DNA of 30,630 nucleotides from a virus: positions 1 to 30,630 of IMG/VR virus record IMGVR_UViG_3300043777_000067, one strand, 5' to 3'. Shown piece after piece: positions 1,744 to 27,732 of the stretch (position 1 is the stretch's first letter; each line of letters begins with the position of its first letter). The translations under genes were made by a program, and so were the position numbers. A model generated the notes under the pieces. That model saw nothing but the letters and a program-made list of their open reading frames with translations. It ran no database searches and was not told the origin of the DNA.

Positions 1744-1749
1744 GCATCG

Positions 1750-9395: not shown

Positions 9396-9433
9396 TTGTG
9401 TCACGAGAGCTTGGTGATTACGGTTCGGTCACC
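9396..9433 (-). repeat. Dispersed A/B element copy E4 (short class)
   Basis: Reads GGTGACCGAACCG, then after 33 nt from box A start the TGA of CTCTCGTGACACAA. Box A to TGA is coding for the last residues (SGDRTVITKLS) of the upstream gene. The box B GTG is in frame with the glycosyltransferase downstream. Confidence 0.9.
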
Positions 9434-9625
9434 TGATGCCTGCGACTCTAAAAATCGAATCGCGGGAGCTACAATGCCGTCTGCAAACATTTTCCTATCG
9501 CTCACTCTGCCTTCCACGAGAAGGCGATAACCATGACGGAGTTGTGCGATGTGAAACAACAATTGGCTCGGCGGATAGCTGACCGATTCCGGCGCTTCCA
9601 CAGTTGCAAGACTCTCGTGACCCAT
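9401..9625 (-). CDS. Unknown small protein ending in the dispersed element (74 aa)
   Basis: The start ATG 9623-9625 has GGGGGA about 5 bases upstream and lies one base after the stop of the 207-residue gene. It begins MGHESLATVEAPESVSYPPS, where the GHES codons are an inverted copy of box B. The middle is helical (LLFHIAQLRHGYRLLVEG). The last 11 residues, SGDRTVITKLS, are encoded by dispersed element E4, and its TGA is the stop in box B. The gene is thus bounded by two copies of box B in opposite directions. Function unknown. Confidence 0.7.
   Translation of the reverse strand: MGHESLATVEAPESVSYPPSQLLFHIAQLRHGYRLLVEGRVSDRKMFADGIVAPAIRFLESQASGDRTVITKLS
9612..9621 (+). repeat. Dispersed element, box B only (E15), opposite to transcription
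   Basis: CTCTCGTGAC on the plus strand. On the minus strand it reads GTCACGAGAG and is translated as codons 2-5 (GHES) of the 74-residue gene. Confidence 0.65.
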
Positions 9626-9626
9626 A

Positions 9627-10250
9627 CTATTCCCCCGGTTCGGCGAGCTTGTGCGACGGCATCGGAATATCCAGCGCGGGGTCAATACTCATCTTGAGAT
9701 TGCCGCCTGTCCCGCGATACTTGCCGCCCATTTCGAATCCGTCGCGCATGGCTTTGGCAAGCTGCGCCTTACCACCCATCAATGATTCGTCACGGTCACG
9801 CATCTGCTGGATTGCGTTGCGCTTGTCCTCGTTCGCGGCTTCGATGCACATTTCCTCCGGGCGCTCCATCAGAGCTTGACCGCGCACCACGATAGGACCG
9901 TCATAGCCTTTGGGCATCCAATGGCCATCATGGCGCCTTGCTGGAACCGGACGCCACCCGTTCTGATAAAACTCGTTGTAGAAATCTTGCGCAATGTCCT
10001 TGTTGCCCAGCGACGCCATCACGCACCACTGATATTTGAAGCCTTCCGGCTCGAAACCGGGAGGCACCACGAATGGATCAAGGCCGCCGCGCCGCGAGCG
10101 GGTGAGGATTTCACCGTCGGCCGATCTATGAACGCGAGGTCCACTACGGGGAGCGTCGCGCTGCGGATTGCGAGGCTTATAAGGGCCGCGCCGCCGCACT
10201 GGCGTGTCGGTATCGAGCATTTCGCCGTTATCGTCGGGTTCGTTGGTCAT
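9627..10250 (-). CDS. Conserved-looking phage protein, unknown function (207 aa)
   Basis: The start is ATG 10248-10250. Residues 1-60 are Arg/Pro-rich and probably disordered (TPVRRRGPYKPRNPQRD). Residues 61-140 look folded and aromatic (FKYQWCVMASLGNKDIAQDF, YQNGWRPVPARRHDGHW), and the C-terminal part is helical, ending in PMPSHKLAEPGE. The WRPVPA-type segment resembles phage proteins encoded next to scaffold and capsid genes. A minor virion or scaffold-associated role is plausible, not shown. Confidence 0.75.
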   Translation of the reverse strand: MTNEPDDNGEMLDTDTPVRRRGPYKPRNPQRDAPRSGPRVHRSADGEILTRSRRGGLDPFVVPPGFEPEGFKYQWCVMASLGNKDIAQDFYNEFYQNGWRPVPARRHDGHWMPKGYDGPIVVRGQALMERPEEMCIEAANEDKRNAIQQMRDRDESLMGGKAQLAKAMRDGFEMGGKYRGTGGNLKMSIDPALDIPMPSHKLAEPGE

Positions 10251-10254
10251 TGAA

Positions 10255-11235
10255 TTATTGCTCCGTTAACGACTTGTCGTATTGTCCGCTTTGTTTGAGC
10301 GCGAGTTTGCGTCTAGCAAATTCTTGGACTCCGATGGGGTCGCCTTTTTTGAATCGCTTCTGGCCAGATGGGTCGTCATAGTTCCAGGTGAGGGTGCCAT
10401 CCGTGGCCGACGCTGCTTCACCCGCGCTCAATCTCACTTCCGTTCCTCCACTGACGCCCCCAGCAGATGCCGCGACAGGGGCCACAGGCGCCGCCGCAGC
10501 GCGGCGTTGAGTCTGTGCGCCGCCGTTTGCCGCAGCTTTGCCGTTGGGTTTTGTAATGCCAAGGAATTTCTCAACATGCTTGAAATAATCGGCGCTGCCG
10601 CGCGTACATCCCTCCGCGAACGCATCCGCATCCGCCGCGTTGAGTTTGGCGGCACGTCTCGGATCAGAATTTGTCGCCAATATGCGAGCGTCGTCTGGGT
10701 GATCGCGGAGCCACGCTTGCGTTCCTGCGTCTCGGCTCTGGATAAAAGCTTCCACAGGATCGCTGACGGTTGGCTCAGGGCGAAGAACCTCACCCCTTTT
10801 CGGTTGAGTCTTTTGGACTTCAAGATCGGCCTTGGCTTCGGTGAGTCGCCCAAGCGTCGCGCGGGCATCGGCTAACCTTTCCTGCGCTTCCGCCGCCTTG
10901 GCCCAATCGCCGGCTTCCATTGCGGCCTTGTATTCGGATTTGGCTGCGTCCGAGGACGTTTGCGCCGCTGCAATGCCTTGCTCAACCGTACCGAGACGTG
11001 TTTCAGCAATTTCCGTCCGCGTGGTTTCGACTTCGGCCTGCGCTGCCTGGCGTCCTTGGCTTTCCGTCGCCGCACGCCGTTCCGCCGCCTGCCGTGCTTC
11101 CTTTTCGCGCGCCGTTTCGGCTTGCAGTTCGGTCAACTGCGCCTTGAGCGCATCGGCAACGTCGGTTGTTTTCTCGTCCGGTTTCTTTTCCGGTTCTTCC
11201 TTTTCGATTTCCACTACGATTTCATCGTCGGTCAT
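10255..11235 (-). CDS. Probable head scaffolding protein (326 aa)
   Basis: An acidic N-terminus (MTDDEIVVEIEKEEPEKKPD) leads into a long Ala/Glu/Gln-rich coiled coil from about residue 30 to 135, a variable linker rich in Ala and Pro, and a basic C-terminal end. This architecture, together with its place between portal and capsid genes, is that of a phage scaffold. The start is uncertain: ATG 11233-11235, ATG 11242-11244 and the box B GTG 11263-11265 (MTQTFRRM) are all in frame. No protease gene is adjacent, as in P22-like heads, whose scaffold is recycled. That last comparison is inference. Confidence 0.65.
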   Translation of the reverse strand: MTDDEIVVEIEKEEPEKKPDEKTTDVADALKAQLTELQAETAREKEARQAAERRAATESQGRQAAQAEVETTRTEIAETRLGTVEQGIAAAQTSSDAAKSEYKAAMEAGDWAKAAEAQERLADARATLGRLTEAKADLEVQKTQPKRGEVLRPEPTVSDPVEAFIQSRDAGTQAWLRDHPDDARILATNSDPRRAAKLNAADADAFAEGCTRGSADYFKHVEKFLGITKPNGKAAANGGAQTQRRAAAAPVAPVAASAGGVSGGTEVRLSAGEAASATDGTLTWNYDDPSGQKRFKKGDPIGVQEFARRKLALKQSGQYDKSLTEQ

Positions 11236-11434
11236 GGGTGCCATCCGTCGAAAGGTTTGTGTCACGAGAGTTTGTTTGTTCTTTGCCGCCGGACTCGGTC
11301 ACCTGATGTTCCAGAGTGCCATCATCTTTGCGAATCCAACCATCCTGTTCGAGATTTGCGCGGACGCAATACCCATATTTACATAAATTGGGCATTGTGC
11401 ATTCGCCGTATGGACAATATGGACACCCACGCAT
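11222..11434 (-). CDS. Small Cys-rich, probable zinc-binding protein (70 aa)
   Basis: The start ATG 11432-11434 overlaps the stop of the co-chaperonin gene (TGATG). Cysteines at 4, 7, 12, 18 and 23 in MRGCPYCPYGECTMPN and CKYGYC suggest one zinc site. From residue 43 on the reading frame runs through dispersed element E2 in a third frame (HQVTESGGKEQTNS) and into the start of the scaffold gene, so the C-terminal 28 residues may be an acquired extension. Function unknown. Confidence 0.6.
   Translation of the reverse strand: MRGCPYCPYGECTMPNLCKYGYCVRANLEQDGWIRKDDGTLEHQVTESGGKEQTNSRDTNLSTDGTHDRR
11257..11303 (-). repeat. Dispersed A/B element copy E2 (long class)
   Basis: Box A GGTGACCGAGTCCGGCGG starts at 11303, and box B CTCTCGTGACACAA ends at 11257; box A to TGA is 42 nt. 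It is nearly identical to E1 at 27691 on the other strand, differing at a few middle bases. The GTG is in frame with the scaffold gene. Confidence 0.92.
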
Positions 11435-11886
11435 CAGAATATACTCTCCGGATCAGCCACGCGCCCCATGATGAGCGTATCTTCCACGAGTCGCACCGAA
11501 CTGCCATCCAAACTTGACTTCTCATCCACGAAAAAGAATTCGTGGGCGTCGGACGCCTTGTACATGATCCAGTCACCGACTTTGAGCGTGACGCCGCCGA
11601 AGCTGTCGGGTTTTGCGCCCTTGAACGCGGTGGGGCCGACTTTGAGAACCAGCCCGATCTTGCCTTGGAAGCGATCCTCGGCGCGCGTCCTGTCACCGCC
11701 GATGATGATGCCGCCCTTGGTCATGTCGGAACGAACATAGGTTCCGACCAGCACGAGGTTATGAAACGGCTCGAAATTCTCGATATTGTCGGCGCCGATG
11801 GCATCAACCAGAACCGTGCGCGCATCCTTGCCCTTGCCGATAGCCTCGGCGATGTCGGACAGTTTGCGGACTGACGTAACACTCAT
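11434..11886 (-). CDS. GroES-like co-chaperonin (150 aa)
   Basis: Expected to cap the host GroEL ring and help fold a phage protein, as T4 gp31 does for its capsid. The Cpn10 core starts near residue 43 (HNLVLVGTYVRSD). A mobile-loop-like segment TKGGIIIGGDRTRAEDRF follows at 56-73, then QGKIGLVLKVGPTAF, VTLKVGDWIMYK and VRLVEDTLIMGRV, in the normal order. Length is longer than bacterial GroES (about 97 aa) because of a 40-residue helical N-terminus and an insert. The gene lies between portal and scaffold genes and overlaps both neighbours by a few bases. The mobile loop tip GGIII is compatible with GroEL binding. Confidence 0.8.
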   Translation of the reverse strand: MSVTSVRKLSDIAEAIGKGKDARTVLVDAIGADNIENFEPFHNLVLVGTYVRSDMTKGGIIIGGDRTRAEDRFQGKIGLVLKVGPTAFKGAKPDSFGGVTLKVGDWIMYKASDAHEFFFVDEKSSLDGSSVRLVEDTLIMGRVADPESIF

Positions 11887-12164
11887 TTGTTGTTGGCCTT
11901 GTGCTTTGCCGCATCAGTCCGAATTTTATCGGCAATAAAGTCCGGCACCTCGGCGCCCATCTTGGTCAAATGATCCAGCAAACGCGCGGCCAATTTTTCC
12001 CTGCTTTCCGTAGGATTAAGCACGGAATAAATCTGTTCGGCGCAACGCTTGGCCTCTATTTCGCGCTGCGCCGCATCATATTTGCGCGCCGTCGCAGCGA
12101 ACATGAACGCGGCGATCAGTTCACTAGACCATTGAACGAATTGTTCCTGCGTTTCCTCGATCAT
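11883..12164 (-). CDS. Small helical protein, unknown (93 aa)
   Basis: The start ATG 12162-12164 overlaps the preceding stop (ATGA), and its stop overlaps the co-chaperonin start (ATGA). The protein is almost all helix (MIEETQEQFVQWSSELIAAF, then RKYDAAQREIEAKRCAEQI) with a Lys-rich tail KHKANNK. No family recognised. Strong coupling with the co-chaperonin suggests co-regulated stoichiometry. Confidence 0.65.
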   Translation of the reverse strand: MIEETQEQFVQWSSELIAAFMFAATARKYDAAQREIEAKRCAEQIYSVLNPTESREKLAARLLDHLTKMGAEVPDFIADKIRTDAAKHKANNK

Positions 12165-12391
12165 TTTTTTCTTTCCTGCGATTCGGTTTCAACGTCAATG
12201 CAATGCTGAATAGCGTCGTCAACCCCTTGGAGCTTGCCAGAACGAAACTTGAAATCTCCCCAATCGACCGACGCCTGAAATTCCTCGACCAATTGCTTGC
12301 GATACCGCTCCAACCGAGCGCGAACCGTCCCCGCTACCGCAGGGTGATCGACCGCGAAAAAGCGTACCGCAGAGGGTTGTTGAGTTGCCAT
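12161..12391 (-). CDS. Unknown small protein (76 aa)
   Basis: The start ATG 12389-12391 has TTTAGG just upstream; the dispersed element E6 lies about 28 bases further upstream. The sequence starts MATQQPSAVRFFAVDHPAV and continues with helical segments (RARLERYRKQLVEEF, GVDDAIQHCIDVETES). No motif recognised. It heads the group 12161-11222 that includes the co-chaperonin. Confidence 0.65.
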   Translation of the reverse strand: MATQQPSAVRFFAVDHPAVAGTVRARLERYRKQLVEEFQASVDWGDFKFRSGKLQGVDDAIQHCIDVETESQERKK

Positions 12392-12418
12392 CCTAAACAC
12401 TCACGTCGTCAGTAAGTT

Positions 12419-12455
12419 TTGTGTCACGAGAGACAGGGCTTACGGTGCGGTCACC
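12419..12455 (-). repeat. Dispersed A/B element copy E6 (short class, 32 nt)
   Basis: Box A GGTGACCGCACCG begins at 12455 and box B CTCTCGTGACACAA ends at 12419. One base shorter than the other short copies, it has lost the common frame. The GTG here opens only an eight-codon frame and is not in frame with the next gene. Confidence 0.88.
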
Positions 12456-12475
12456 AAACCCGCACCGACTCAAGG

Positions 12476-13324
12476 TTACGCGCGCTTGTATTCTTTCGCC
12501 GCGCGGCGCTCTTTCGTCAAGCGCGCCTCGCCGCCGCCGGCACCACCCGGTAGTTTTGTGTCCGGCGCAACACCCTTTGGCGCCTCGATCTTTCCACCCA
12601 TCGCGCGCTTCACGTCGGGGGCCAAAGGTTCTTTGGTTCGCGCCACGGTTGGTTTGTAGCTCACGCCGGGACCAGCCGTTCCGGGCGTTTGGCCGACGCC
12701 GCCACCGTAGGCCCGGAAGGATTTGACGACCCCGCCGCCCGTCTTGAACGTGATAACCCTGCCGCGCCCGATGTTCTTGCCGTCCGATTTGCCGTCACTA
12801 TGCTGCGGTTGTGTGCCCGCGTTCAAGCCGCCTTTCCAGGCTGGGCCGTCTTTGATCCTCCCACCCCGCGCTCGCATCGGCATCGGTGGAGGCGGCATCA
12901 TGCCGGGACGCGGCGGCATTGCGCCACCCGGAGGCATTCCAGGCGGACCACCCGGAGGCGGCATCGCGCCCGGCGGAGGCATCGGAGGCGCAGCACCCAT
13001 CGGCGGACGCGGCGGCATTCCAACGCCAGCCAAGCCACCCGGAGGTGGCATCAGCGGAGGTGTGCCGGGATGCTGCGGCGAATTGATGATGTTGACCGTG
13101 GTTCCCTTGTGCTTGACTTTGCCGCCGCGCGCTCGCTTGTCGGCACGGTGCTTGACGCCACCGCCGGTCATTCGCATGGCGGTTTTCTTGACGGCACCGC
13201 CTTTGGCTCGCTTGGACGCGGGAACGGTTTGGACTGCGCCACCCGTCGCATAGCCCTTGGTCATGTGGGCGACGCGCTTGCGCTCGACTTTGTGCTGGCG
13301 GTGCTCTGCGAAGGGATGGGCCAT
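12476..13324 (-). CDS. Basic Pro/Gly-rich phage protein with GG-repeat motifs (282 aa)
   Basis: The start is ATG 13322-13324, overlapping the preceding TAA (TAATG). Short basic units are scattered along the chain: YATGGAVQ, RAKGGAVKK, RARGGKVKHKG and RARGGRIKDG, each a small-GG-hydrophobic-basic pattern. Residues about 80-150 are a run of PP, PPG and MPP units. The product is very basic and likely disordered. Similar [RK]xGG[VI] proteins accompany portal genes in many phages of alphaproteobacteria; a role in binding packaged DNA is possible but not demonstrated. Short codon-level repeats are visible in the DNA. Confidence 0.75.
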   Translation of the reverse strand: MAHPFAEHRQHKVERKRVAHMTKGYATGGAVQTVPASKRAKGGAVKKTAMRMTGGGVKHRADKRARGGKVKHKGTTVNIINSPQHPGTPPLMPPPGGLAGVGMPPRPPMGAAPPMPPPGAMPPPGGPPGMPPGGAMPPRPGMMPPPPMPMRARGGRIKDGPAWKGGLNAGTQPQHSDGKSDGKNIGRGRVITFKTGGGVVKSFRAYGGGVGQTPGTAGPGVSYKPTVARTKEPLAPDVKRAMGGKIEAPKGVAPDTKLPGGAGGGEARLTKERRAAKEYKRA

Positions 13325-13725
13325 TAGGTATACCTCTCCATGATCTTTCTTAGCCTTACGTAGAATTCGTCCTTGTAGGTATGGCCGTCCTCGATTTCGT
13401 CGAACGAAAACAGTTCGTGATGAGTGCAGACGCGCCAGCTTTCCGGGTAGGCATCGTAGCCCATAACCAATAAATCAATACCCCAATCGGTCACGAACAT
13501 ATCCAACGCCGGCCAGTGAGGATGATCCATCTTGTCGGATAACAGCCCAGCATAGAGTTGGGCTTTGGCACGGTACATCGCCACCTGTCGCAAACACCCG
13601 TCATTCAAAACCACCGGGTTAAACGGAAGCGCCAGCGAAGGACGCGCCTGCGCCTGCGGAATCATCACCCCGACAAAAGGCAGCGCCGTAAGCCATTTCA
13701 GCACCGAGCGACGGGGATGGTTCAT
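13324..13725 (-). CDS. Predicted Tat-exported protein in the head operon (133 aa)
   Basis: The start ATG 13723-13725 follows GAAGGAAC at good distance and overlaps the stop of the 59-residue gene (ATGA). The N-terminus MNHPRRSVLKWLTALPFVGV has a twin-arginine RRSVLK motif, a hydrophobic stretch and a likely cleavage site after QAQA at about residue 27, so export by the host Tat (or Sec) system is predicted. The mature part is acidic and aromatic (WGIDLLVMGYDAYPESW) with two Cys, and ends KIMERYT. No family recognised. An exported protein amid packaging genes is unexpected. Confidence 0.7.
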   Translation of the reverse strand: MNHPRRSVLKWLTALPFVGVMIPQAQARPSLALPFNPVVLNDGCLRQVAMYRAKAQLYAGLLSDKMDHPHWPALDMFVTDWGIDLLVMGYDAYPESWRVCTHHELFSFDEIEDGHTYKDEFYVRLRKIMERYT

Positions 13726-13901
13726 TGGCGTTCCTTCAAATAGTCCCGAATCACCATATCGCTGCGGCTGCACCCATGAGGTTCGGGTTTTGCCTCACAA
13801 AACGGGCACCGCGCCAGCCTGTCGATAATATGAGGCCATACCGCAGTGATCGTCTCCCACGAAAGACCTTCGCGCTCGATTTCGGCAGCGGTTTGCATCA
13901 T
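13722..13901 (-). CDS. Small zinc-finger-like protein (59 aa)
   Basis: ATG 13899-13901 overlaps the portal stop (ATGA); a second ATG one codon later is equally placed. The stop overlaps the start of the Tat-signal gene. The middle RCPFCEAKPEPHGC offers Cys32, Cys35, His42 and Cys44 as a possible zinc site. N-terminal helix AEIEREGLSWETITAVWPHI. Its size just below common gene-calling limits means it may be missed by automatic annotation. Function unknown. Confidence 0.65.
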   Translation of the reverse strand: MMQTAAEIEREGLSWETITAVWPHIIDRLARCPFCEAKPEPHGCSRSDMVIRDYLKERQ

Positions 13902-16141
13902 TCACTCCCCGAATCAGTCGGCGCTGGAGGGTTCAAAACTTGATGCACATTCAAGGCATGTTCCGCAACGTCCATATTGGCGTCATGCACAGCCTGTTGC
14001 GTCGCCAGCCCATGTTGCGCCGTGGCCAAGCCGTGCTGCTGTTGCCCTAGACTATGCTGCTGCGCCGCAACCTTGGCATCGTGCGCCGCGTCGTCCTTAT
14101 GGATCACCATTTCCTTGGCCAAATCGACGGTCGCGATATTCTGCTCGGCCTGCAGCTTGCTGGTCTGAATCGTCATATCCTGCGACGCTTCCTGCGCCGC
14201 CACTTGTGCTTTCTGTTGCGCCGCTTGAGCACTGAGCATCTTCGCGTTCGCTGCGATCATGTTCGGGTCGGGCGCGGCAGGCGCGGGCGCTTGTTCGGGC
14301 GCAATGATATTGGTCGGGTCTTGGCGAATCACGCCCAATATCGTGTTCAAGGTTCCACGTGGGTCCATGATCGGCGCAAACGCCGGAACCGCAATCAATT
14401 GCGACAACGCAACAGCCTTGGCCACGCGATGAATGTGCGACGGCGTATTCGGGTCTGAGGCCGGTTCGAGGTGACAGTTTTCCAATGCCTGCATGAACTT
14501 CTGCTCATCCCAATAATCCGGCGGGCAAATCTTGTTAGCCTTCCAAAAATCTTCCGGGTTCTTGCGAAACAAATTAACAATCAGTTCGATTTCTTCGGCT
14601 TGGGCTTGGTGCATTCCCTTGTGGGCTGCGGATTCAACCTTCGTCGCCTGCTCGATTTGCGCGAGCATCGTCCCAACTGGAACGTTCGCCACACCCTCCG
14701 CAGTCGGAATATCGCCAGCGGCCGAAAGCGATTGCGTCTGCTGCTGCACTTTGTCGATCAGCGCGAGCATTCCCGGCCCAACGTCCTTGTAGGGCATCGG
14801 GGAAATAATATTGCCAATCGGTTGATTGTTAGTCTCGACAGGCACGCCGGTTCCGGGGCCGACGCGAAAATCAGATGTATTCTGCCGCCCACCAAGCTTC
14901 GCAATCAGAAAGGAGGGGAACGTCGCAAACATCGCAGAGTCGAGCGATAGCCTCCATGCCGCAGTCAGAGCAGACGAGGCATTGCCGAGGATATTCAATA
15001 ATCCCGTACCATAAAAGCCAGGCCCTGGGACATATGGATACTTCACATACATTCGTTGTCGTTCGCATTGATCGTCGTCCTCTTCCCAATCGCGGCGAAG
15101 CGCAAGGATTTCCTTGGTATCCTTGTCCATCGTCACGAGATAGGGCAGCGCAATGCCTTCATTCTTGAACTGCCCCGGCGCGTACTCGGCAATGTCAAGT
15201 TCGCACTGCGATTCCCAGATCGTATAGGGCTGATCCTCCGGGCGCGATTTCTGCGGCGTCGGGTCGGTGCCCTGCTGACTCGCAATCTTTGCATCGACCG
15301 CATTCACTTGCGGGGGCGGCGCTGTGCCAAGACTTATATCGCGATAGGCGCCAATCAACTGCATTCGTTTCAGCACCGATGGCCGCATGGGGATTTGGTG
15401 CGTGATGCGGGCGCACGAACGCAAATCTTTGGTGGTGTCCGAAACGATCAAGTCCTTTTCGTCCACGCTTTCAGAAACCGGACGCCGTTTCATCGGACAG
15501 CGATATATTTTCTTGAATCCGCTGCCGCCGAAGTATGTGCCCCACAACAGCATGTGCGAGGTGTCGGGATAGTATTCCGTCGCGGTCTTGGTGAAGTAAT
15601 GGTTAAGATCGCGCTCGAATGCGTCAGCGAGATTATCTTCGGACTGAATTGATTGGTCGTCTTTGTTGGCGACTTTGACCGGGCCATCGGAGGGCAGCAA
15701 TTCCGCCTGCGCATTGGCCCAACCTTTCAAACATGCTTCGAGCAACAGCGGGTTTGTGACAGTAGATTGGCCCTCTACCGCTGCCGATGTATCGCCCACC
15801 GTAGCGCGGGGTTCTTTCAGTTCGAGGCCCAATAAGCCTAAGCCGCGTGCGCGGATTTCAAGATGATTGCCGCGCGATCTATCGTCAGCGGCGATTTGGT
15901 CGTGAAGTTCGTTGGCGATCAGGGAGAGTTGGGAGGCGCCAATTTCATCCGCAAGATTGTCGTAGAATTTGTCGCCAGTATCGTCGCCGTCCTTTTTTGG
16001 GCGTCGCGCGTCGAGTTGCACCACCACGCCGCCGTCTGGTTGTTCCGTGGAGATAGTCCCCGTCGCAGGGTCAGTCGTTACCTTGCCGTCCTCGTCGTCG
16101 ATGACGATTTGGATGCCTGAGACGGGTTGCGGGTCAGGCAT
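13898..16141 (-). CDS. Portal protein (747 aa), P22-like size
   Basis: Forms the dodecameric ring through which DNA enters and leaves the head and to which terminase docks. Evidence is its size (P22 gp1 is about 725 aa), position after the terminases, and portal-like segments: LWGTYFGGSGFKKIYRCP near residue 200, DLRSCARITHQIP, KYPYVPGPGFYGTGLLNILG, and a long C-terminal Gln/Ala/His-rich helix (about 625-735) that resembles the P22 barrel. The N-terminal 60 residues are acidic and variable. The start ATG 16139-16141 overlaps the upstream gene by eight bases. Confidence 0.88.
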   Translation of the reverse strand: MPDPQPVSGIQIVIDDEDGKVTTDPATGTISTEQPDGGVVVQLDARRPKKDGDDTGDKFYDNLADEIGASQLSLIANELHDQIAADDRSRGNHLEIRARGLGLLGLELKEPRATVGDTSAAVEGQSTVTNPLLLEACLKGWANAQAELLPSDGPVKVANKDDQSIQSEDNLADAFERDLNHYFTKTATEYYPDTSHMLLWGTYFGGSGFKKIYRCPMKRRPVSESVDEKDLIVSDTTKDLRSCARITHQIPMRPSVLKRMQLIGAYRDISLGTAPPPQVNAVDAKIASQQGTDPTPQKSRPEDQPYTIWESQCELDIAEYAPGQFKNEGIALPYLVTMDKDTKEILALRRDWEEDDDQCERQRMYVKYPYVPGPGFYGTGLLNILGNASSALTAAWRLSLDSAMFATFPSFLIAKLGGRQNTSDFRVGPGTGVPVETNNQPIGNIISPMPYKDVGPGMLALIDKVQQQTQSLSAAGDIPTAEGVANVPVGTMLAQIEQATKVESAAHKGMHQAQAEEIELIVNLFRKNPEDFWKANKICPPDYWDEQKFMQALENCHLEPASDPNTPSHIHRVAKAVALSQLIAVPAFAPIMDPRGTLNTILGVIRQDPTNIIAPEQAPAPAAPDPNMIAANAKMLSAQAAQQKAQVAAQEASQDMTIQTSKLQAEQNIATVDLAKEMVIHKDDAAHDAKVAAQQHSLGQQQHGLATAQHGLATQQAVHDANMDVAEHALNVHQVLNPPAPTDSGSE

Positions 16142-16361: not shown

Positions 16362-16405
16362 TGCCGTTCCCTCATCGCCCTGACGATATTCGTCATCGCG
16401 CGAGC

Positions 16406-16672: not shown

Positions 16673-16710
16673 GGTGACCGCACCGTTATCGCTCCGCTAT
16701 CGTGACACAA
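16673..16710 (+). repeat. Dispersed A/B element copy E9 (short class), opposite to transcription
   Basis: Box A GGTGACCGCACCG and box B CTATCGTGACACAA, 33 nt from box A start to TGA. It fills the whole gap between the large terminase and the next gene, but in the reverse direction. In its own frame it reads GDRTVIAPLS-stop, like copies E4 and E5. Confidence 0.88.
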
Positions 16711-16714
16711 CACG

Positions 16715-18765: not shown

Positions 18766-18768
18766 TTA

Positions 18769-18814: not shown

Positions 18815-19547
18815 CCGTCGCACCAAATCTGTACGTCAAATCAACCTCGATCCCCAATTCTCGCGCCTGATTCGCAAGCTGCGCCACAAGCTCCTGATCG
18901 CTCAATCGCGACAATTCACCATCATCGCGTTGAGCAGTACCGATGCCAAGCATTTTGCGCAATTCCGCGTTGGCCTGCAATTTCGAGTACGGCTTTGGAA
19001 TCACAAATCCCGCGTCATTGATCGAAATGCTTTCCACCGCGCGCTGCACGTCCTCGGGCATTTCGTGAATATTCTTCGGCCGCTGCACCCATTTCATCAC
19101 CACCGAACCATCCGGATTGATGATCGGATTTCCCTTGTGGTCGCGCTTTTCGACTTCGACCATTTCCCACATTTGTTTGACGTTAGCCTCGTGAATCGTC
19201 CACAGGAATTCCTCAAGGCGGCGGCGCTTGGCTTGGAGGATTTCTTCTTCCTGCCGCGTCCAATAGGCGATTCGGTCCTGCACGTCCTGACGGCGCAGCA
19301 AGCGTGATGCGTTGCCGGCAGCGTCGTGATCGGACTCCGATTTATAGCCGGCCTGGCGGTAGGCGTCGGCTTTTGGCCGCATGACGGCGCAGAGGTAGCA
19401 GAATCGCTCAAGGCGCCGATTGTGCAACGGCGTGGAACCGGGGTAAGAGCTTGGAACTATTGAGGTTGCTCGGCTTTCGGTGACCGAATCCGGTGTTTCG
19501 CGCTGAAGGCCCTCCCGTGAAGCATCATGTTGCACTGCATCATTCAC
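18810..19547 (-). CDS. Terminase small subunit (245 aa)
   Basis: Binds the packaging site and recruits the large subunit. Residues about 44-95 have the Terminase_2-type DNA-binding pattern: RRLERFCYLCAVMRPKADAY, RQAGYKSES, ASRLLRRQDVQDRIAYW. A coiled coil (EEEILQAKRRRLEEFLWTI) follows, then a beta-rich central part and a C-terminal helix. The only plausible start is GTG 19545-19547. The first 40 residues are weakly structured, and residues 8-24 are an inverted reading of dispersed element E11. The stop lies inside box A of E10. Confidence 0.85.
   Translation of the reverse strand: MNDAVQHDASREGLQRETPDSVTESRATSIVPSSYPGSTPLHNRRLERFCYLCAVMRPKADAYRQAGYKSESDHDAAGNASRLLRRQDVQDRIAYWTRQEEEILQAKRRRLEEFLWTIHEANVKQMWEMVEVEKRDHKGNPIINPDGSVVMKWVQRPKNIHEMPEDVQRAVESISINDAGFVIPKPYSKLQANAELRKMLGIGTAQRDDGELSRLSDQELVAQLANQARELGIEVDLTYRFGATG
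19479..19520 (+). repeat. Dispersed A/B element copy E11 (long class), opposite and inside a gene
   Basis: Box A GGTGACCGAATCCGGT and box B CTCCCGTGA, 42 nt to TGA. It lies within the 5' part of the small terminase gene and is read in antisense as REGLQRETPDSVTES. Its middle GAAGGCCCTC matches copy E7. Confidence 0.8.
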
Positions 19548-19572
19548 GACGAGTCACCTAGAGTCATTTCGC

Positions 19573-19612: not shown

Positions 19613-19630
19613 CCAGCAGGAGGGGCAAAC

Positions 19631-20607: not shown

Positions 20608-20614
20608 AGTGTAC

Positions 20615-20623
20615 CTCTCGTGA
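20615..20623 (+). repeat. Dispersed element, box B only (E13), opposite to transcription
   Basis: CTCTCGTGA on the plus strand. In the direction of the replication gene it reads TCACGAGAG, so the GAGAG acts as the ribosome-binding site for ATG 20605-20607. Confidence 0.6.
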
Positions 20624-20661
20624 TACGACAACTCACGACGCGCTCCCAGCTTGCGCCGAAG

Positions 20662-22403: not shown

Positions 22404-22413
22404 TTTATGCCTC

Positions 22414-22623: not shown

Positions 22624-22632
22624 TCGTGGCTC

Positions 22633-22872: not shown

Positions 22873-23099
22873 TGGCCTAATACCCTGACTTCCTTGCCTT
22901 CGGCCTGCCTCAAGGTGTCGATTGCGAGGGTGAGATTGGCGACGGTTTGGAGGTACATTCTGTATCGCCGGAAGGCGTGGTTGTATTCTTTCGTTGCTAC
23001 AAGTCTTTCCAGGGATCGCTCGACAGTTTCTATTCGGCGCAAAGTTTGGGCGCGTCGTTTTGTTAGGATTAACAATGGGTTATGGGTGTTTTGGGTCAC
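22869..23099 (-). CDS. Small basic coiled-coil protein starting in the dispersed element (76 aa)
   Basis: The only good start is GTG 23097-23099, inside box B of E7, with GAAGG seven bases upstream also inside the element. The next in-frame ATG is at codon 48. It starts MTQNTHNPLLILTKRRAQTL and is a two-helix basic protein (IETVERSLERLVATKEYNHA). The stop of the upstream 50-residue gene overlaps this start (GTGA). This is the clearest case of the element supplying a start codon. Function unknown. Confidence 0.7.
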   Translation of the reverse strand: MTQNTHNPLLILTKRRAQTLRRIETVERSLERLVATKEYNHAFRRYRMYLQTVANLTLAIDTLRQAEGKEVRVLGQ

Positions 23100-23137
23100 G
23101 AGAGGGCCTTCGCGATGATAGACCGGACTCGGTCATC
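23091..23137 (-). repeat. Dispersed A/B element copy E7 (long class)
   Basis: Box A GATGACCGAGTCCGGT starts at 23137 and box B CTCTCGTGACCCAA ends at 23091; box A to TGA is 42 nt. It encodes the C-terminus DDRVRSIIAKALS of the 50-residue gene and supplies the start of the next one. Confidence 0.9.
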
Positions 23138-23248
23138 TATGCGCCGAGACAGGCATGGGTGTGTCTTTTTTGCCACATCCCATAGGGATGGGCGCAGAAA
23201 GTGGGCGATCAGGCGGCGGGGGCGGCGCTTGAGGCGATTTTGCGTCAT
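23096..23248 (-). CDS. Small Arg-rich protein ending in the dispersed element (50 aa)
   Basis: ATG 23246-23248 overlaps the stop of the HTH gene (ATGA) and the stop overlaps the next start (GTGA). It starts MTQNRLKRRPRRLIAHFLRP and ends IDDRVRSIIAKALS, the last 14 residues being read from element E7. Very basic. At 50 residues it is below common gene-calling limits. Function unknown; packing on both sides supports translation. Confidence 0.55.
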   Translation of the reverse strand: MTQNRLKRRPRRLIAHFLRPSLWDVAKKTHPCLSRRIDDRVRSIIAKALS

Positions 23249-23484
23249 TCTGCGGCCTCAATCTTTTCGGGCGGCAGCGTCGACATGCCCCATAACCGGG
23301 AATTGGCGCCCAAGCCTTTCTCCATAAGTGCCTGGCGCATAACGAGAAAATGCCGCGACGGGAATACATTGGCTCGGCGCCAGAAGCTCACTTGTTGCTT
23401 GGAACGTCCGGTCAGCGCCGCCGTGGCGTTTGTGCCGCCGAGCGCGTCAATGACCGCGTTTGCGTCGTCAAGCATGGTCGTCAT
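23245..23484 (-). CDS. Small HTH regulator, Cro/YdaS-like (79 aa)
   Basis: Residues 5-60 have the pattern of short phage and alphaproteobacterial HTH regulators: ANAVIDALGGTNATAALTGR, then SKQQVSFWRRANVFPSRHFL and VMRQALMEKGLG. It is the first leftward gene, divergent from the rightward early genes, the classic position of a cI/cro-type regulator. ATG 23482-23484 was chosen because the 84 bases upstream contain operator-like repeats; an ATG at 23566-23568 is in frame and would extend the protein by 28 residues. Confidence 0.78.
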   Translation of the reverse strand: MTTMLDDANAVIDALGGTNATAALTGRSKQQVSFWRRANVFPSRHFLVMRQALMEKGLGANSRLWGMSTLPPEKIEAAE

Positions 23485-23623
23485 GGCGTAGCCGTACACT
23501 AAATGTTTATCGGGGGCAAGACGGATTGCGTTCACGGAAACGTGATCGGTGCGGTAAACAAAACCCATTGCATTCGGTAAACACCTAGTTTACTCTCAAA
23601 TTATCGGAACAAGGGAGACGGAC
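23485..23623. promoter_or_regulatory. Divergent control region with operator-like repeats
   Basis: Separates the leftward HTH gene from the rightward early genes. CGGTAAACA occurs at 23552-23560 and 23575-23583, and CGATAAACA inverted at 23504-23512. The second copy forms a palindrome GTAAAC-ACCTA-GTTTAC (23577-23593). Spacing between the two direct copies is 23 bp. These are candidate binding sites of the adjacent HTH protein; promoters must lie here, but I see no perfect -10/-35 pair. Confidence 0.6.
23577..23593. promoter_or_regulatory. Candidate operator palindrome
   Basis: GTAAAC and GTTTAC are perfect inverted halves separated by five bases. It lies about 30 bases before the start of the first rightward gene, where a repressor would block transcription. 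Half-sites recur twice more in the same region. Confidence 0.5.
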
Positions 23624-23815
23624 ATGACCAAGCTTACCGGAATTTTCGAGGTCTATCGCGGCCACTACATCCAAGAGAGCGACGGCAAGTGGCACGTCTA
23701 TAAAGGCGACAATACCCTTCTCGCCACCGCTGACCGCGAGCAGGCCGCTTACGATTTCGTGGACATCGAGCGCCGCAAAGCGCGTGGCGCGGGCGACCGC
23801 CCCGTAACCACGTGA
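23624..23815 (+). CDS. First rightward early gene, unknown (63 aa)
   Basis: ATG 23624 has GGGAGA eight bases upstream. The sequence MTKLTGIFEVYRGHYIQESD continues with GKWHVYKGDNTLLATADR, a small beta-rich fold, then a helix and the tail GAGDRPVTT, which resembles the GDRTVIT tail encoded by the short class of the dispersed element. First gene after the control region, so likely expressed immediately early. Not recognised. Confidence 0.7.
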   Translation: MTKLTGIFEVYRGHYIQESDGKWHVYKGDNTLLATADREQAAYDFVDIERRKARGAGDRPVTT

Positions 23816-23816
23816 A

Positions 23817-23824
23817 GGTGACCG
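23817..23824 (+). repeat. Dispersed element, box A half only (E18)
   Basis: GGTGACCG immediately before ATG 23825, giving AAGGTGA as ribosome-binding site. It mirrors half-site E17 before the aminotransferase gene. Confidence 0.45.
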
Positions 23825-24019
23825 ATGACCCTCTCCCACCCACTCCCCTCTCATGACCCAGACGACCGCATTGTGGCGCAAGCCTTTGCGTTGGGGTTGG
23901 AAATAGCCGAGCGCGAGGAACAACAGAAGAAATGGCAGCGCATGGTGGTGGGGTTGGGTGCGAGCGTGGCCGTTAACATCGTGACAATCATTTGGTTCTT
24001 AATGTGGAGGCTATCATGA
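23825..24019 (+). CDS. Small C-terminally anchored membrane protein (64 aa)
   Basis: ATG 23825 follows a box A half-site. The N-terminal 38 residues are soluble and charged (RIVAQAFALGLEIAEREEQQ), followed by one transmembrane helix from about residue 41 to 61 (VVGLGASVAVNIVTIIWFLM). The charge distribution predicts a cytoplasmic N-terminus. Function unknown. Confidence 0.65.
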   Translation: MTLSHPLPSHDPDDRIVAQAFALGLEIAEREEQQKKWQRMVVGLGASVAVNIVTIIWFLMWRLS

Positions 24020-24207
24020 CCCCGATTGAGGTCGGCGGATACAAGGTTGTGTTGTGCCGTAGCTGCACAACCGGCAATTACTTTTACCAAGTGAATCAAG
24101 ACGGCGCGCTAGACCCTATAAGTCAACACGGCACACGTGCTGCCGCCATTGCTGCCGCAAAACGCTATACGGCGAGCGACAAAAGGCGCGCGCTTCCGCA
24201 GGAATAG
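24016..24207 (+). CDS. Unknown small protein (63 aa)
   Basis: ATG 24016 overlaps the preceding stop (ATGA) and has GGAGG upstream. The product begins MTPIEVGGYKVVLCRSCTTG (one CxxC), continues with NYFYQVNQDGALDPISQHGT and ends in a basic helix. Compact beta-beta-alpha look. Not recognised. Confidence 0.65.
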   Translation: MTPIEVGGYKVVLCRSCTTGNYFYQVNQDGALDPISQHGTRAAAIAAAKRYTASDKRRALPQE

Positions 24208-24217
24208 GGAGATTGTA

Positions 24218-24394
24218 ATGGGATGGGTTTTGATCGTGATGTCAGTCAACGGCATGTCAAGCGCCGCGACGATGACAAGCTTGGGTATGTGTAGGCAGCA
24301 ATTTCAGTTGGCCTATCTCGGCCAAGAGATAAAGGAAGCCTATTGCGTCAACACGAGTGGAGACCGCGTCAATTTATTCCCGGTACGTGAATAA
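24218..24394 (+). CDS. Small probably exported protein (58 aa)
   Basis: ATG 24218 is preceded by GGGAGA at good spacing. Hydrophobic N-terminus MGWVLIVMSVNG followed by a Ser/Ala/Thr-rich stretch. Cys25 in MCRQQF and Cys43 in AYCVN could form a disulfide. This layout occurs in many short phage and rhizobial proteins with a hydrophobic start and two Cys. Function unknown; a signal peptide or membrane anchor is possible. Confidence 0.6.
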   Translation: MGWVLIVMSVNGMSSAATMTSLGMCRQQFQLAYLGQEIKEAYCVNTSGDRVNLFPVRE

Positions 24395-24395
24395 A

Positions 24396-24433
24396 GCTGA
24401 CCGCACCGTAATCACCGACCTCTCGTGACACAA
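24396..24433 (+). repeat. Dispersed A/B element copy E5 (short class)
   Basis: GCTGACCGCACCG then CTCTCGTGACACAA; 33 nt from box A start to TGA. In the same frame as E4 it reads ADRTVITDLS-stop. The GTG is in frame with the downstream 151-residue gene, ten codons before its ATG. Confidence 0.9.
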
Positions 24434-24454
24434 CCAAACCAACAGGGGCTTACA

Positions 24455-24910
24455 ATGACCGACGAAACACTCCAAGGCGATTTCACCGTTATCACCGAGC
24501 CGACGCGCAACGATGCCCTGCAGGCGCTTATCGAGACGCTACGGAAGGCGTCAGGCTCAAGGCACAACGCGATTGCTACGGTGCATCGCGAGGCTGTGCA
24601 GGCGCTTGCCAGGCTCTATGTGCCGCGCTTGTCGGTGTCACCTTCGCCGGATCAGTTTCGGGATTTGGCAGACTTTCTTAACCATTGGGCGCGGATAGCT
24701 GATCGAGTTTTGAAGATCGTGGGAGAGGAAGCAAAATCGAATACGACCGAGACTTTGGATATGAGAGTGTTCGATGGGACGTTCCATGCTGTGATCGAGG
24801 GGGATGCTTGTTTTGAGTTGGAAAGGTGCGCCCAAGAGGTAGAAGCGGAACAGGAATACGGCGGTTATTATCCTGAGTATGAGTACGAGGATAGGCTGTC
24901 GGAGGATTAG
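24455..24910 (+). CDS. Acidic helical protein, unknown (151 aa)
   Basis: ATG 24455 has AGGGG seven bases upstream; the box B GTG at 24425 is in frame but lacks a ribosome-binding site. Helical core (NDALQALIETLRKASGSRHN, FRDLADFLNHWARIADRVLK) followed by a strand-rich part and a very acidic, Tyr-rich C-terminus (EYGGYYPEYEYEDRLSED). An acidic tail is common in DNA-mimic or single-strand-binding accessory proteins; no family recognised. Confidence 0.7.
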   Translation: MTDETLQGDFTVITEPTRNDALQALIETLRKASGSRHNAIATVHREAVQALARLYVPRLSVSPSPDQFRDLADFLNHWARIADRVLKIVGEEAKSNTTETLDMRVFDGTFHAVIEGDACFELERCAQEVEAEQEYGGYYPEYEYEDRLSED

Positions 24911-24976
24911 TTGGGTCATTCTGGATCACGGGTTGCGAATGCGACACGGAAATTCACACGACCGCTGGAGGGGAAA

Positions 24977-25363
24977 ATGGAACGCGCAGTTGCAGTAAAA
25001 AAGCTAGGCAAGCTGCTTGGCAAAAACCTCGGCTATCGCATCGCCGACAAGGCGCCGACGAAAGAGGAACGCGCTGCGGCGCAAAAGGCGCTCATCGGGG
25101 CAGTGGCACACCGGAATGCTCTGAAAGAGAAGCGCGACGAACGATACCGAGCAATCCTGGCCGCAGATGCCGAGTACCAACAGCTTCATGCGGAACACCG
25201 CGCCGCCAGCGAGCATGTGAACGAGCTATCGTCGATCACCCGCCATTACAAGATCACGGTGGGCATATCGAACAGTATGTTCTTCCACATCAAGGCCGAA
25301 GGCGACTCATGGGAAGAAATCATTGACAAGGTCCAATGGGACGGGACAAACAAACTCTCGTGA
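24977..25363 (+). CDS. Basic helical protein, unknown (128 aa)
   Basis: ATG 24977 follows GGAGGGG at good distance. Begins MERAVAVKKLGKLLGKNLGY, then a long charged coiled coil (APTKEERAAAQKALIGAVAH to about residue 85) and a small beta part (YKITVGISNSMFFHIKAEGD). The last residues GTNKLS and the TGA stop belong to box B copy E14. No family recognised. Confidence 0.7.
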   Translation: MERAVAVKKLGKLLGKNLGYRIADKAPTKEERAAAQKALIGAVAHRNALKEKRDERYRAILAADAEYQQLHAEHRAASEHVNELSSITRHYKITVGISNSMFFHIKAEGDSWEEIIDKVQWDGTNKLS

Positions 25364-25368
25364 GGCAA
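25355..25368 (+). repeat. Dispersed element, box B with left flank (E14)
   Basis: CTCTCGTGAGGCAA preceded by GGGACAAACAAA, matching the right half of copies E1 and E2. The TGA ends the upstream gene (TNKLS) and the GTG is in frame with the next gene (MRQTM). No box A. Confidence 0.8.
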
Positions 25369-25371
25369 ACC

Positions 25372-25608
25372 ATGACTAATAAAAAACTTTTGGCAAAGGT
25401 TGAGGGCAAGCACCACGACCAAAAGCCACGTTACTTGCCCGAGATTGAGAACACCGGCGCGCCGCCGCCGTGCGAACTAAATTACGCCCCGCACTTACAC
25501 CACCACCCGCGCTATCCGAGCGGCGACTGTGTCATCTGCGGGGCGCTATGCACCGAAGGCTGCAAGCATTGGCTTGCGGTAGGCGAATGGACACCATTGG
25601 AGGGCTGA
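25372..25608 (+). CDS. Small probable zinc-binding protein (78 aa)
   Basis: ATG 25372 with GTGAGG six bases upstream, or the box B GTG 25360 four codons earlier. The C-terminal half has PSGDCVICGALCTEGCKHW, four Cys and a His in a row typical of a small zinc site. The N-terminal half is basic and His-rich (HLHHHPRYP). Unknown role; possibly nucleic-acid binding. Confidence 0.65.
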   Translation: MTNKKLLAKVEGKHHDQKPRYLPEIENTGAPPPCELNYAPHLHHHPRYPSGDCVICGALCTEGCKHWLAVGEWTPLEG

Positions 25609-25609
25609 A

Positions 25610-25810
25610 ATGAAACTTTTTACTTTCACGCGGCCCGATGGCGGCAAGGTCGCACTCAATCTTGCTAACGTCGAAGTGCTGCGCCGAACAGATGAGAGTT
25701 TCGGCACGGCAAAAGGGGGCCACACCGAAATCATCCTTTCGTCTGGTGCGATTCAGGTCGTCACCGAAACTCTAGAGGAGGTCATGAACCTATGTACGAC
25801 CGCAACCTAG
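25610..25810 (+). CDS. Unknown small beta-rich protein (66 aa)
   Basis: ATG 25610 has GGAGGG just upstream. The sequence MKLFTFTRPDGGKVALNLAN then VEVLRRTDESF, HTEIILSSGAIQVVTETLEE looks like four to five beta strands with a short helix, similar to small barrel proteins. Common pattern in phage and bacterial proteins of unknown role. The end overlaps the next gene by 19 bases. Confidence 0.7.
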   Translation: MKLFTFTRPDGGKVALNLANVEVLRRTDESFGTAKGGHTEIILSSGAIQVVTETLEEVMNLCTTAT

Positions 25811-26004
25811 GCTGTTTCTACGGCGCGATCTTCGACGACCGCGCAGAGAAGGACGACGAGGTTTGGATTGCTGTTACAATCGACCTTGCCGGAACGCAGA
25901 CGCATCTTTGCCGCTTCGCTACCGAGGATGCAGCCGAATCCTGTGCGAGGCTGCAATGGTTGGAGGACTCGCAAGCCAACGGACAGTTTGGAGTGGGAGC
26001 GTAA
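25792..26004 (+). CDS. Unknown small acidic protein (70 aa)
   Basis: ATG 25792 has GGAGG about nine bases upstream, inside the previous gene. The product starts MYDRNLGCFYGAIFDDRAEK, then strand-rich EVWIAVTIDLAG and a helical TEDAAESCARLQWLE. It resembles a small alpha/beta domain; not recognised. Confidence 0.65.
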   Translation: MYDRNLGCFYGAIFDDRAEKDDEVWIAVTIDLAGTQTHLCRFATEDAAESCARLQWLEDSQANGQFGVGA

Positions 26005-26006
26005 AA

Positions 26007-26204
26007 ATGGATCACGAAAACGAAGGTTTCACCGGATCGTGCCCAACGTGCGGCCAGAGCTATCGCGGCTATGAAATCGAGCGCCTGCGCGCAGCACTAC
26101 AAACGGCCGAACAGGCGCTAAAGGGCCAATCCGTCGTCGAGAAAGCCTACGCGCTCCATATCGTGCGCGACGCCATCGCCCAAGCTACAGGGAGGCCAGC
26201 GTAA
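26007..26204 (+). CDS. Small CxxC helical protein (65 aa)
   Basis: ATG 26007 follows GGGAGC. N-terminal CPTCG motif (residues 12-16), then one long helix with heptads (YEIERLRAALQTAEQALKGQ) and a helical tail. Such a zinc-knuckle plus coiled-coil architecture is frequent in small phage proteins. One CxxC alone suggests zinc shared in a dimer. Function unknown. Confidence 0.65.
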   Translation: MDHENEGFTGSCPTCGQSYRGYEIERLRAALQTAEQALKGQSVVEKAYALHIVRDAIAQATGRPA

Positions 26205-26205
26205 C

Positions 26206-26943
26206 ATGCACGCGAACATCGGCCACAATCAGCCGCCAGGGCCAATCGACTTCGCCAAGGAAGCGATCAGCGAGCTTTCCGAATACCTCAAGGAAAACCC
26301 GGTCGTTGAAACCTTTGACCAAGCCAAAGCGGCCGCTGCCCATATCGAGCGCACAAGGATCGCCCTCAAATCAATGGAGGAGGAGCGTTCTATAAAAGTT
26401 CTGCCCCTCAACGAACAGTTATCGACGATAAACACGGCTTATCGCATCGTCCGCGAGCCGCTGACCAAGATTTACGACACCTTGAAAGTTCGTGTGACGG
26501 CCTACAATCGGGCAGAGGAGGCCAAGCGCGCGGCGGAAGCGCAACGGCTGGCGGATATAGCGGCGGAAGCTGAGCGCGCTGCACGGGCGGCGGAAGCGGC
26601 CGAGCAAGAGGCCATTGCCAATGCGGAAGCTGGCGAATGTGCAGACGTGGGCGACGCCATCACCCAGGCCGACGATGCGTTTCGGGAATACTCGGTGGCC
26701 AACCGGGCGGCGCAGCGGGCGGATCGGGAAACCAAGGTGCGGATTCCGAGCGCGATGGGCGGCCGTGCATTGGGAATGCGCCAGGTCGAAGTGTTCACCG
26801 TCGAGGACGCCTGCGCCGCCGTCACCATCATGGGCGCGTCGGACGATCTTAAGAAACAGATTATCCGCGACGCCAAGCGGTTTCGTGAGGCGACGGGCGA
26901 ATTACCGGAAGGTGTAACGTCGGCTTACGAAAGATCATTGTAG
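26206..26943 (+). CDS. Coiled-coil phage protein of the early region (245 aa)
   Basis: ATG 26206 follows GGAGG 12 bases upstream. MHANIGHNQPPGPIDFAKEA starts a family of IGHNxPP phage proteins. A long Ala/Glu/Arg coiled coil extends over about residues 100-150, and the C-terminal domain (VEVFTVEDACAAVTIMGASD then LKKQIIRDAKRFREATGELP) resembles phage proteins encoded next to recombination or single-strand-binding genes. A role in replication or recombination is inferred from this and from position only. After its TAG the same frame continues as ASVDRVR, encoded by element E3. Confidence 0.75.
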   Translation: MHANIGHNQPPGPIDFAKEAISELSEYLKENPVVETFDQAKAAAAHIERTRIALKSMEEERSIKVLPLNEQLSTINTAYRIVREPLTKIYDTLKVRVTAYNRAEEAKRAAEAQRLADIAAEAERAARAAEAAEQEAIANAEAGECADVGDAITQADDAFREYSVANRAAQRADRETKVRIPSAMGGRALGMRQVEVFTVEDACAAVTIMGASDDLKKQIIRDAKRFREATGELPEGVTSAYERSL

Positions 26944-26949
26944 GCATCA

Positions 26950-26996
26950 GTTGACCGAGTCCGGTGAAACGGAATACTGTACCTCTCGTGACACAA
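26950..26996 (+). repeat. Dispersed A/B element copy E3 (long class)
   Basis: GTTGACCGAGTCCGGT then CTCTCGTGACACAA; 42 nt from box A start to TGA. TCCG and CGGA can form a short hairpin inside. The GTG at 26988 is in frame with the next gene through MTQMEQAM. Confidence 0.92.
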
Positions 26997-27008
26997 ATGG
27001 AGCAAGCC

Positions 27009-27458
27009 ATGCAGACCGCAACCATCGAAGTGAAATACGTCGGCCCCCCGAAAGAGGGCAAGCAATACGGCTTCATCAAGGGCGCGGACAATTCCACTTT
27101 TCCGGTGAAGGCTGATCGGATCAGAGAGTTTGAACCGGGCAACAAATACGAACTGGCCTGGACCGAAGGCCACAACGGTTTTAAGAACATCATCGGCGTC
27201 AAGCGGATTGTTGCGCAAGCTGCTCCGCAAGGCGACTTCACGCAGATCAGCGAACCGAAAGCTGTACCAAAGCAAACAAACGGGCAGCAATATTGGCAAC
27301 CGAAACCCACGTCGCCGAAGGACGGCAAGCGCATGTGCGTCACGTCGCTGATGAACGCGGGAATTACGAGCCATCAAATTCCGTTCACGCGAGACGCACT
27401 GGCGACGGCGTTTCGGGCGGTCAGCGAAGCGTTCGATGATGTGTTCGGAGAAGATTAG
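27009..27458 (+). CDS. Possible single-stranded DNA-binding-like protein (149 aa)
   Basis: ATG 27009 is preceded by GGAG at seven bases; in-frame starts further up are ATG 26997, GTG 26988 and GTG 26964. The N-terminal half is beta-rich (TATIEVKYVGPPKEGKQYGF, STFPVKADRI, KYELAWTEG, IIGVKRIV), like a small OB-type barrel. It is followed by a Gln/Pro/Lys-rich linker and a helical C-terminus with acidic end FDDVFGED. That layout resembles SSB proteins, but no signature residue proves it. Confidence 0.6.
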   Translation: MQTATIEVKYVGPPKEGKQYGFIKGADNSTFPVKADRIREFEPGNKYELAWTEGHNGFKNIIGVKRIVAQAAPQGDFTQISEPKAVPKQTNGQQYWQPKPTSPKDGKRMCVTSLMNAGITSHQIPFTRDALATAFRAVSEAFDDVFGED

Positions 27459-27498
27459 GTTTGCATCATCTGCGCGGAGCGCGCGGGGATAGGATCAT

Positions 27499-27506
27499 CG
27501 GTCACC
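27499..27506 (-). repeat. Dispersed element, box A half only (E16), opposite to transcription
   Basis: GGTGACCG on the minus strand, in the gap before the 50-residue membrane gene. Could be chance; listed because of position between two genes. Confidence 0.35.
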
Positions 27507-27526
27507 ATATCGCAGAGGAACCAGTC

Positions 27527-27679
27527 ATGAGATTTCCGGCATTTTATATGGGCGCGGGCGTAATGTGTGGCGTTGGCGCGGTTAACACTACCATACAACA
27601 GCCGCTCTTTGGATTATTGTTTGCAGGGGCCATACTCCTCATTCTTTTGGGCGCACTATTCGAGGCGTGCAATTCATGA
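27527..27679 (+). CDS. Small membrane protein (50 aa)
   Basis: ATG 27527 has GAGGAA about eight bases upstream. Two hydrophobic stretches: FYMGAGVMCGVGAV and LFGLLFAGAILLILLGALF, with a short turn (NTTIQQP) between. Ends EACNS. Below the usual length limit for gene finding. The stop overlaps the ATG of an 18-codon frame that runs through element E1. Confidence 0.6.
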   Translation: MRFPAFYMGAGVMCGVGAVNTTIQQPLFGLLFAGAILLILLGALFEACNS

Positions 27680-27732
27680 CCCCCGCATCAGGTGACCGAG
27701 TCCGGCGGTACGGAACAAACAAACTCTCGTGA
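27676..27732 (+). CDS. Mini-ORF formed by the dispersed element (18 aa)
   Basis: ATG 27676 overlaps the stop of the membrane gene (ATGA) and the frame MTPASGDRVRRYGTNKLS ends at the box B TGA. It has the same tail pattern as the real genes ending in E4, E7 and E14. A ribosome-binding site is weak. It may be a coupling peptide or just the element's open frame. Confidence 0.25.
   Translation: MTPASGDRVRRYGTNKLS

Follow-up and report, generated by a model that had tools for sequence, protein, structure and literature searches.

Why do several otherwise unrelated genes of one phage appear to finish with the same short peptide? This question was raised by a 30.6 kb phage fragment from IMG/VR (record IMGVR_UViG_3300043777_000067; all 30,630 nucleotides are hereafter the window), in which an initial annotation had read a common C-terminal tail at six places. 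All six peptides were readable there: SGDRTVITKLS (9401, minus strand), ADRTVITDLS (24396, plus), GDRTVIAPLS (16673, plus), DDRVRSIIAKALS (23096, minus), GDRVRRYGTNKLS (27691, plus), and TNKLS (25355, plus). The reported continuation ASVDRVR after the stop at 26943 was likewise found in frame. All six peptide sites hold one DNA element of about 38-48 bp, which runs from box A (GGTGACCG) across a spacer to box B (CTCTCGTGACNCAA); at 25355, box A is degraded. Our results suggest that these gene-boundary elements are probably the ends of exchangeable cargo cassettes, and that the shared protein ends are a by-product.

Box A is usually followed by ARTCCGG or CACCGT before the variable spacer; the boxes are strictly conserved and the spacers change fast. 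The window holds 13 full copies and several partial ones (Table 1). With up to three mismatches, the box B pattern occurred 19 times in the window against 8.4 expected, a count reached in 0 of 100 shuffles, and the box A pattern seven times against 0.34 expected. A scan of nine related contigs (G004 being a duplicate of G001) with a position-specific scoring matrix (PSSM) of position weights gave 134 copies at 13 bits or more, compared with 0 hits at 10 bits or more in the control, sequence-reversed DNA. After further contigs had been added and duplicates removed, 164 copies were found in 618 kb from 28 phage records, with up to 28 copies per genome; a syntenic relative, G013, had zero. The relatives compared are uncultivated phages, L046 being about 90% identical to the window, and their genes were called with a simple hexamer model, which makes the gene-based statistics approximate.

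The distance between box A and box B was 23-24 or 31-35, with three outliers. These two spacing classes lie about ten bases, or about one helical turn, apart, which suggests that one putative protein could contact both boxes on the same DNA face. No common RNA fold was found among 12 copies tested (z-scores -2.4 to +1.2), and no palindromic hairpin; Rfam gave no match to the element. With the patterns used, cultivated phages and plasmids gave no match to the element, and no host genome carried it in multiple copies. Two exact-pattern scans of 84,980 species for a host-borne repeat returned 0 and 5 single matches, no more than estimated chance.

The placement of the copies follows a clear polarity. 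Among neighbouring copies less than 400 bp apart, 23 pairs faced outward, four inward, and none in the same direction; shuffling of strands gave a mean of 7.5 outward pairs and reached 23 in 0 of 5000 trials. Homologues of genes on the box A side were present in 1.46 of five other genomes, and those of genes on the box B side in 2.98 (Wilcoxon p 7e-7). In 28 same-site element pairs with different cargo, identity was at chance (0.28) from right beyond box A onward. Spacer identity in same-site pairs ranged from 0.29 to 0.94, the spacer sometimes staying with the backbone and sometimes going with the cargo. Additionally, 44 of 82 backbone joins with a gap of at least 120 bp carry the element, compared with 12 of 60 joins with shorter gaps, longer gaps also having more room.

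Cargo exchange was seen at several joins. G001 and G003 have no cargo at the 9396/9625 join. At the join that follows the GroES-like gene (window 11222-11434), L046 is empty, and different open reading frames (ORFs) are present in G000, G001, G002, and G003. Upstream of the terminase small subunit, unrelated ORFs lie between the same two elements in G002 and G003, and a single element is found in G000 and G001; the element corresponding to 19479 is fused to the N-terminus of this subunit in relatives. Cargo adjoins the 16673 element in L046, G002, and G003, and relatives have an element at the 27691 site too, where both its spacer and the cargo are different. As a separate observation, the cargo by the terminase element of L046 (3947-4164) is flanked by direct repeats of 11 bp, GTGCGGTYACC; in the window, a single repeat copy is left and cargo is absent, as expected from deletion between repeats.

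Copies were also found dispersed among unrelated flanks. L039 contains two near-identical units of about 101 bp (element-linker-element) with unrelated flanks, and G006 contains three 37-bp elements, identical but for one base in one copy, whose flanks are unrelated on either side. A cassette in G008 has 48-bp inverted ends that are 98% identical, and at the right join of its unfilled counterpart in G002 and L129 lies the box B tip, TGACACAA.

According to the favoured explanation, the element sits where fixed backbone genes (box B side) meet exchangeable small cargo genes (box A side), and two outward-facing copies form the ends of a cassette, often around one small ORF. A cargo frame running into the element obtains a stop codon (CTC TCG TGA) and a short peptide, and a cargo frame beginning in the element obtains a start codon (ATG GGT CAC GAG AG) and a short peptide. 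The boxes may be the points at which DNA is joined during gain, loss, or exchange of cargo. More tentatively, the units might represent a new class of phage cassette, in which single small genes have outward two-box ends with helical-turn spacing, start and stop codons can lie in these ends, and a trans-acting protein mobilises the whole. If this were true, a captured ORF would be expressible at once inside phage operons.

The proposal that unrelated genes share a tail held in part. Three of the six peptides are plausible gene ends (9401-9625, 24977-25363, and a weak 50-amino-acid ORF at 23096-23248). The other three cannot be tails: upstream of the 24396 and 27691 peptides the gene has already stopped, the 24396 peptide lies in another frame, and the 16673 peptide is antisense to both flanking genes. 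Elements in the opposite orientation also give N-termini (MGHES..PESV at 9625), which had been overlooked. The stop codon of an upstream gene lies ahead of box A, at the TGA of box A, within the spacer, at the TGA of box B, or farther on, and the tail peptide therefore differs; by frame, the resulting C-terminus has no tail, VTAP-stop, VTESG.., ..LS-stop, or ..SRDT...

The initial annotation had further considered the tails as a degradation or localisation tag. The idea that the tails are functional peptides under protein-level selection (as a degron, or as a tag for localisation or sorting) is now largely refuted and keeps next to no credibility. It would agree with the occurrence of ..DR(T/V)..LS or N-terminal GHES..RPDSV in several unrelated proteins and with the preference of N-terminal copies for one frame (19 of 23). 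However, the C-termini use all frames, and in the in-frame 5' copies of the 34 class (MGHES..RPDSV) the spacer variation is equal at codon positions 1, 2, and 3 (1.53, 1.43, and 1.55 bits), with no third-codon-position excess as a sign of coding constraint. Moreover, 84 of 127 copies are non-coding, and box conservation is about equal in coding and non-coding copies. The protein encoded at 24977-25363 has six homologues in other phages, all without the element there and with other endings (e.g., ..KLTTERAAAD); the homology ends at residue 119 in five of the six, and none carries the tail. Similarly, a cargo protein beginning with MKFSDE ends in ..VTVPESQAPRDPNGR in G002 and in ..VTESGGKEQTNSRDANHGR in G003, a difference that comes from the 3' element, whose spacer class is not the same in the two phages. 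The conservation of the element acts at the DNA level, not at the peptide level. The variety of frames, the lack of a codon signal, and the tail-less homologues therefore identify the shared tails and heads as passive translation of boundary DNA. The alternative suggestion, that the tails are traces left where the element inserted at the ends of genes, is supported as regards their origin, but not as insertion in the classical sense: no target duplication was found, and the boundaries that hold the element have exchangeable cargo. For annotation, these results advise caution, as shared protein ends need not imply shared function.

Several observations weigh against cassette ends. About half of the copies are unpaired, and the resemblance to terminal inverted repeats (23 of 27 close pairs outward, one pair 98% identical) is limited by most pairs differing; in particular, the two ends of one cassette are mostly of different spacer classes, which is not so in normal terminal repeats. 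Target-site duplication was absent in 29 pairs (mean match 1.03, compared with 1.54 for shuffled partners), and transposition with target duplication was thus rejected. Unfilled sites in general were not enriched for box B-like sequence, and a homology-guided target with a box B core in empty sites was likewise set aside despite two suggestive cases. No transposase was found by Pfam in the first two thirds of the G002 proteins or by PHROG in the middle third, and no candidate enzyme for movement was found; 25 records that lack the element contain tyrosine-recombinase-like homologues. The share of synteny breakpoints is hardly higher at junctions with an element (0.87) than at the other junctions of these highly mosaic genomes (0.83, p 0.12), and the element therefore cannot be the sole exchange route. 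Finally, several copies have stayed at one site and in one orientation across long divergence with no cargo beside them, a hint that they have some function in their own right.

The last two points would fit a site bound by a regulator of phage or host origin (an operator or a start-associated site, comparable to SPBRE or SAS), placed at gene boundaries because regulation takes place there, with the adjoining cargo exchange being ordinary phage mosaicism; two conserved boxes spaced in classes about one helical turn apart, and strictly kept boxes around fast-changing spacers, would also be expected of such a site. We consider this a serious but less likely rival, because copies run nearly equally along (68) and against (56) the flanking genes, the box A side faces the rarer gene, and no sigma-70 promoter or terminator pattern accompanies the element. 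These patterns stayed at chance level: elements coincided with a single promoter-like match (26951) and with none of the terminator-like matches, although host early promoters may differ; a promoter or terminator cassette was rejected, since the patterns are not tied to the element. The outward pairing of close copies and the dispersed paired units with unrelated flanks fit cassette ends better than a binding site. Cargo exchange by homologous crossovers in either box is somewhat less doubtful as an alternative, yet still improbable: different cargo between the same two elements at the terminase small subunit junction, and spacers that follow either backbone or cargo, are as expected, but the boxes are just 8-14 bp, and dispersed copies at unrelated sites and the conservation of the boxes would be left unexplained. 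A phage tyrosine recombinase using the element as its recombination site has very little in its favour. A recombinase-like gene is present in element-rich G001, G002, G005, G006, and G011 and absent from element-free G013, but homologues up to 90% identical occur in phages without any element, which ruled against it as the partner, and G008 and G010, which do carry elements, have the gene in broken form.

The tyrosine-recombinase-like gene showed some features of its own (G001 35969-37242, L060; G008 39322-40919, L090; G010 872-2040, L079). It is intact in the five element-rich genomes named above; only the first approximately 28 and last approximately 21 codons are left in G008 and G010, around unrelated sequence. 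In G001, the ORF that follows closes with a repeat of the last codons of the gene (RMEKSSEKVA), and in the region where the gene is broken in G008 (39250-40919, L090), Gly-Asp and Gly-Tyr codons alternate over a long stretch.

Cassettes that are bounded by insertion sequences and lack a transposase exist. Rickettsia palindromic elements are miniature inverted-repeat transposable elements (MITEs) that make in-frame fusions (PMC10969869). The element resembles both in being small and dispersed, without an enzyme of its own, with repeated ends and in-frame additions to unrelated proteins, but differs in that target duplication is absent, many ends are single, the ends of a unit differ, and copies lie nearly always at gene boundaries. 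Short conserved boundary sequences were proposed long ago for phage mosaicism and are not findable at most mosaic joins (PMC3029335). Here, too, short conserved DNA marks the joins between genes, and the modules on one of its sides vary; unlike the proposed sequences, it is one two-box family with up to 28 copies per genome, in both orientations and often in outward pairs. MPME1/2 of mycobacteriophages, in which MPME is one mobile element of about 440 bp (PMC3029335), are likewise ultra-small phage elements with inverted ends, but here the cargo varies from unit to unit and the copy number is high. SPBRE of SPbeta is a 15-bp operator bound by MrpR (PMC10516654), and the SAS of the SAS/ESAS repeats in cluster K mycobacteriophages lie mostly in one orientation before start codons (PMC3203893). 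They share with our element the character of a short conserved intergenic repeat within one phage group; the two boxes, the use of both orientations (which fails the SAS orientation test), and the cargo/backbone polarity are different. As cited in PMC4503421, the promoter-stem-loop (PeSL) cassettes of T4-type phages are also repeated intergenic elements tied to gene shuffling, but no promoter with stem-loop was found at the element here. Integron attC cassettes, which occur in phages (PMC9892861), are similar as single-ORF cassettes with a repeated recombination site; a palindromic attC-like fold is absent here, and the sites flank the ORF on both sides. By these comparisons, the element behaves most like mosaicism boundary sequences and MITE-bounded cassettes, and it fails the tests of transposon duplication, attC folding, and SAS orientation. 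One phage group with a boundary element at many joins, whose polarity separates cargo from backbone, makes the question of such sequences testable, and the element provides a simple marker for accessory genes in these phages.

Table 1. Element copies and associated genes in the window, with spacing class and surroundings.
Feature	Position	Strand	Class	Context
Element	1700..1747	+	34	Opposite to genes, upstream of DNA methyltransferase gene (967-1683, -); PSSM 42 bits
Box B only, CTCTCGTGAGACAA	5584..5597	-		At gene end/start overlap
Element	7251..7295	-	31	Box A overlaps start codon of 6163-7287 gene, box B within its N-terminus; PSSM 22 bits
Element	9396..9433	-	24	3' end of 9396-9625 cassette; encodes DRTVITKLS
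Cargo ORF, 74 amino acids	9401..9625	-		Start codon in one element, stop codon in other
Element	9578..9625	+	34	5' end of 9396-9625 cassette; encodes MGHESLATVEAPESVS
Cargo ORF	11222..11434	-		In slot adjoining GroES-like gene
Element	11257..11303	-	33	3' end of cargo gene 11222-11434
Element	12419..12455	-	23	Site and orientation same in G001, G002, G003
Element	16673..16710	+	24	3' of terminase large subunit, running opposite to genes
Element	19479..19525	+	33	Upstream of terminase small subunit
Box B only, CTCTCGTGATACGA	20615..20628	+
Element	23091..23137	-	33	ORF 23096-23248 reads it as DDRVRSIIAKALS
Element	23817..23861	+	31	Box A holds start of gene 23825-24019
Element	24396..24433	+	24	Upstream of conserved early gene 24455-24910
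Gene, 128 amino acids	24977..25363	+		Tail derived from element
Element, degraded box A	25324..25368	+		Encodes C-terminus VQWDGTNKLS of 24977-25363
Element	26950..26996	+	33	Upstream of conserved early gene 26997-27458
Element	27691..27737	+	33	Upstream of HNH/DUF968 gene 27745-28173

The arrangement at 7251..7295 recurs in G001 and G003. At 12445-12475, CGGTGCGG precedes the class 23 element 3' of a proline-rich gene; this sequence can pair with CCGCACCG of box A and is conserved among relatives. The GroES-like co-chaperonin gene (11434-11886) lies in the structural region and adjoins a hypervariable cargo slot. A small DNA-binding-like protein with weak YdaS and phage regulator matches is encoded at 23245-23568, at the divergence point of two gene blocks. 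Additionally, related DNA methyltransferase genes adjoin elements at different genome places, in the window (967-1683) and in G003 (23785-25477, L068); the G003 methyltransferase has the element-encoded head MGHEGAIVGAAPDSVN, and the copy in the window is without this head.

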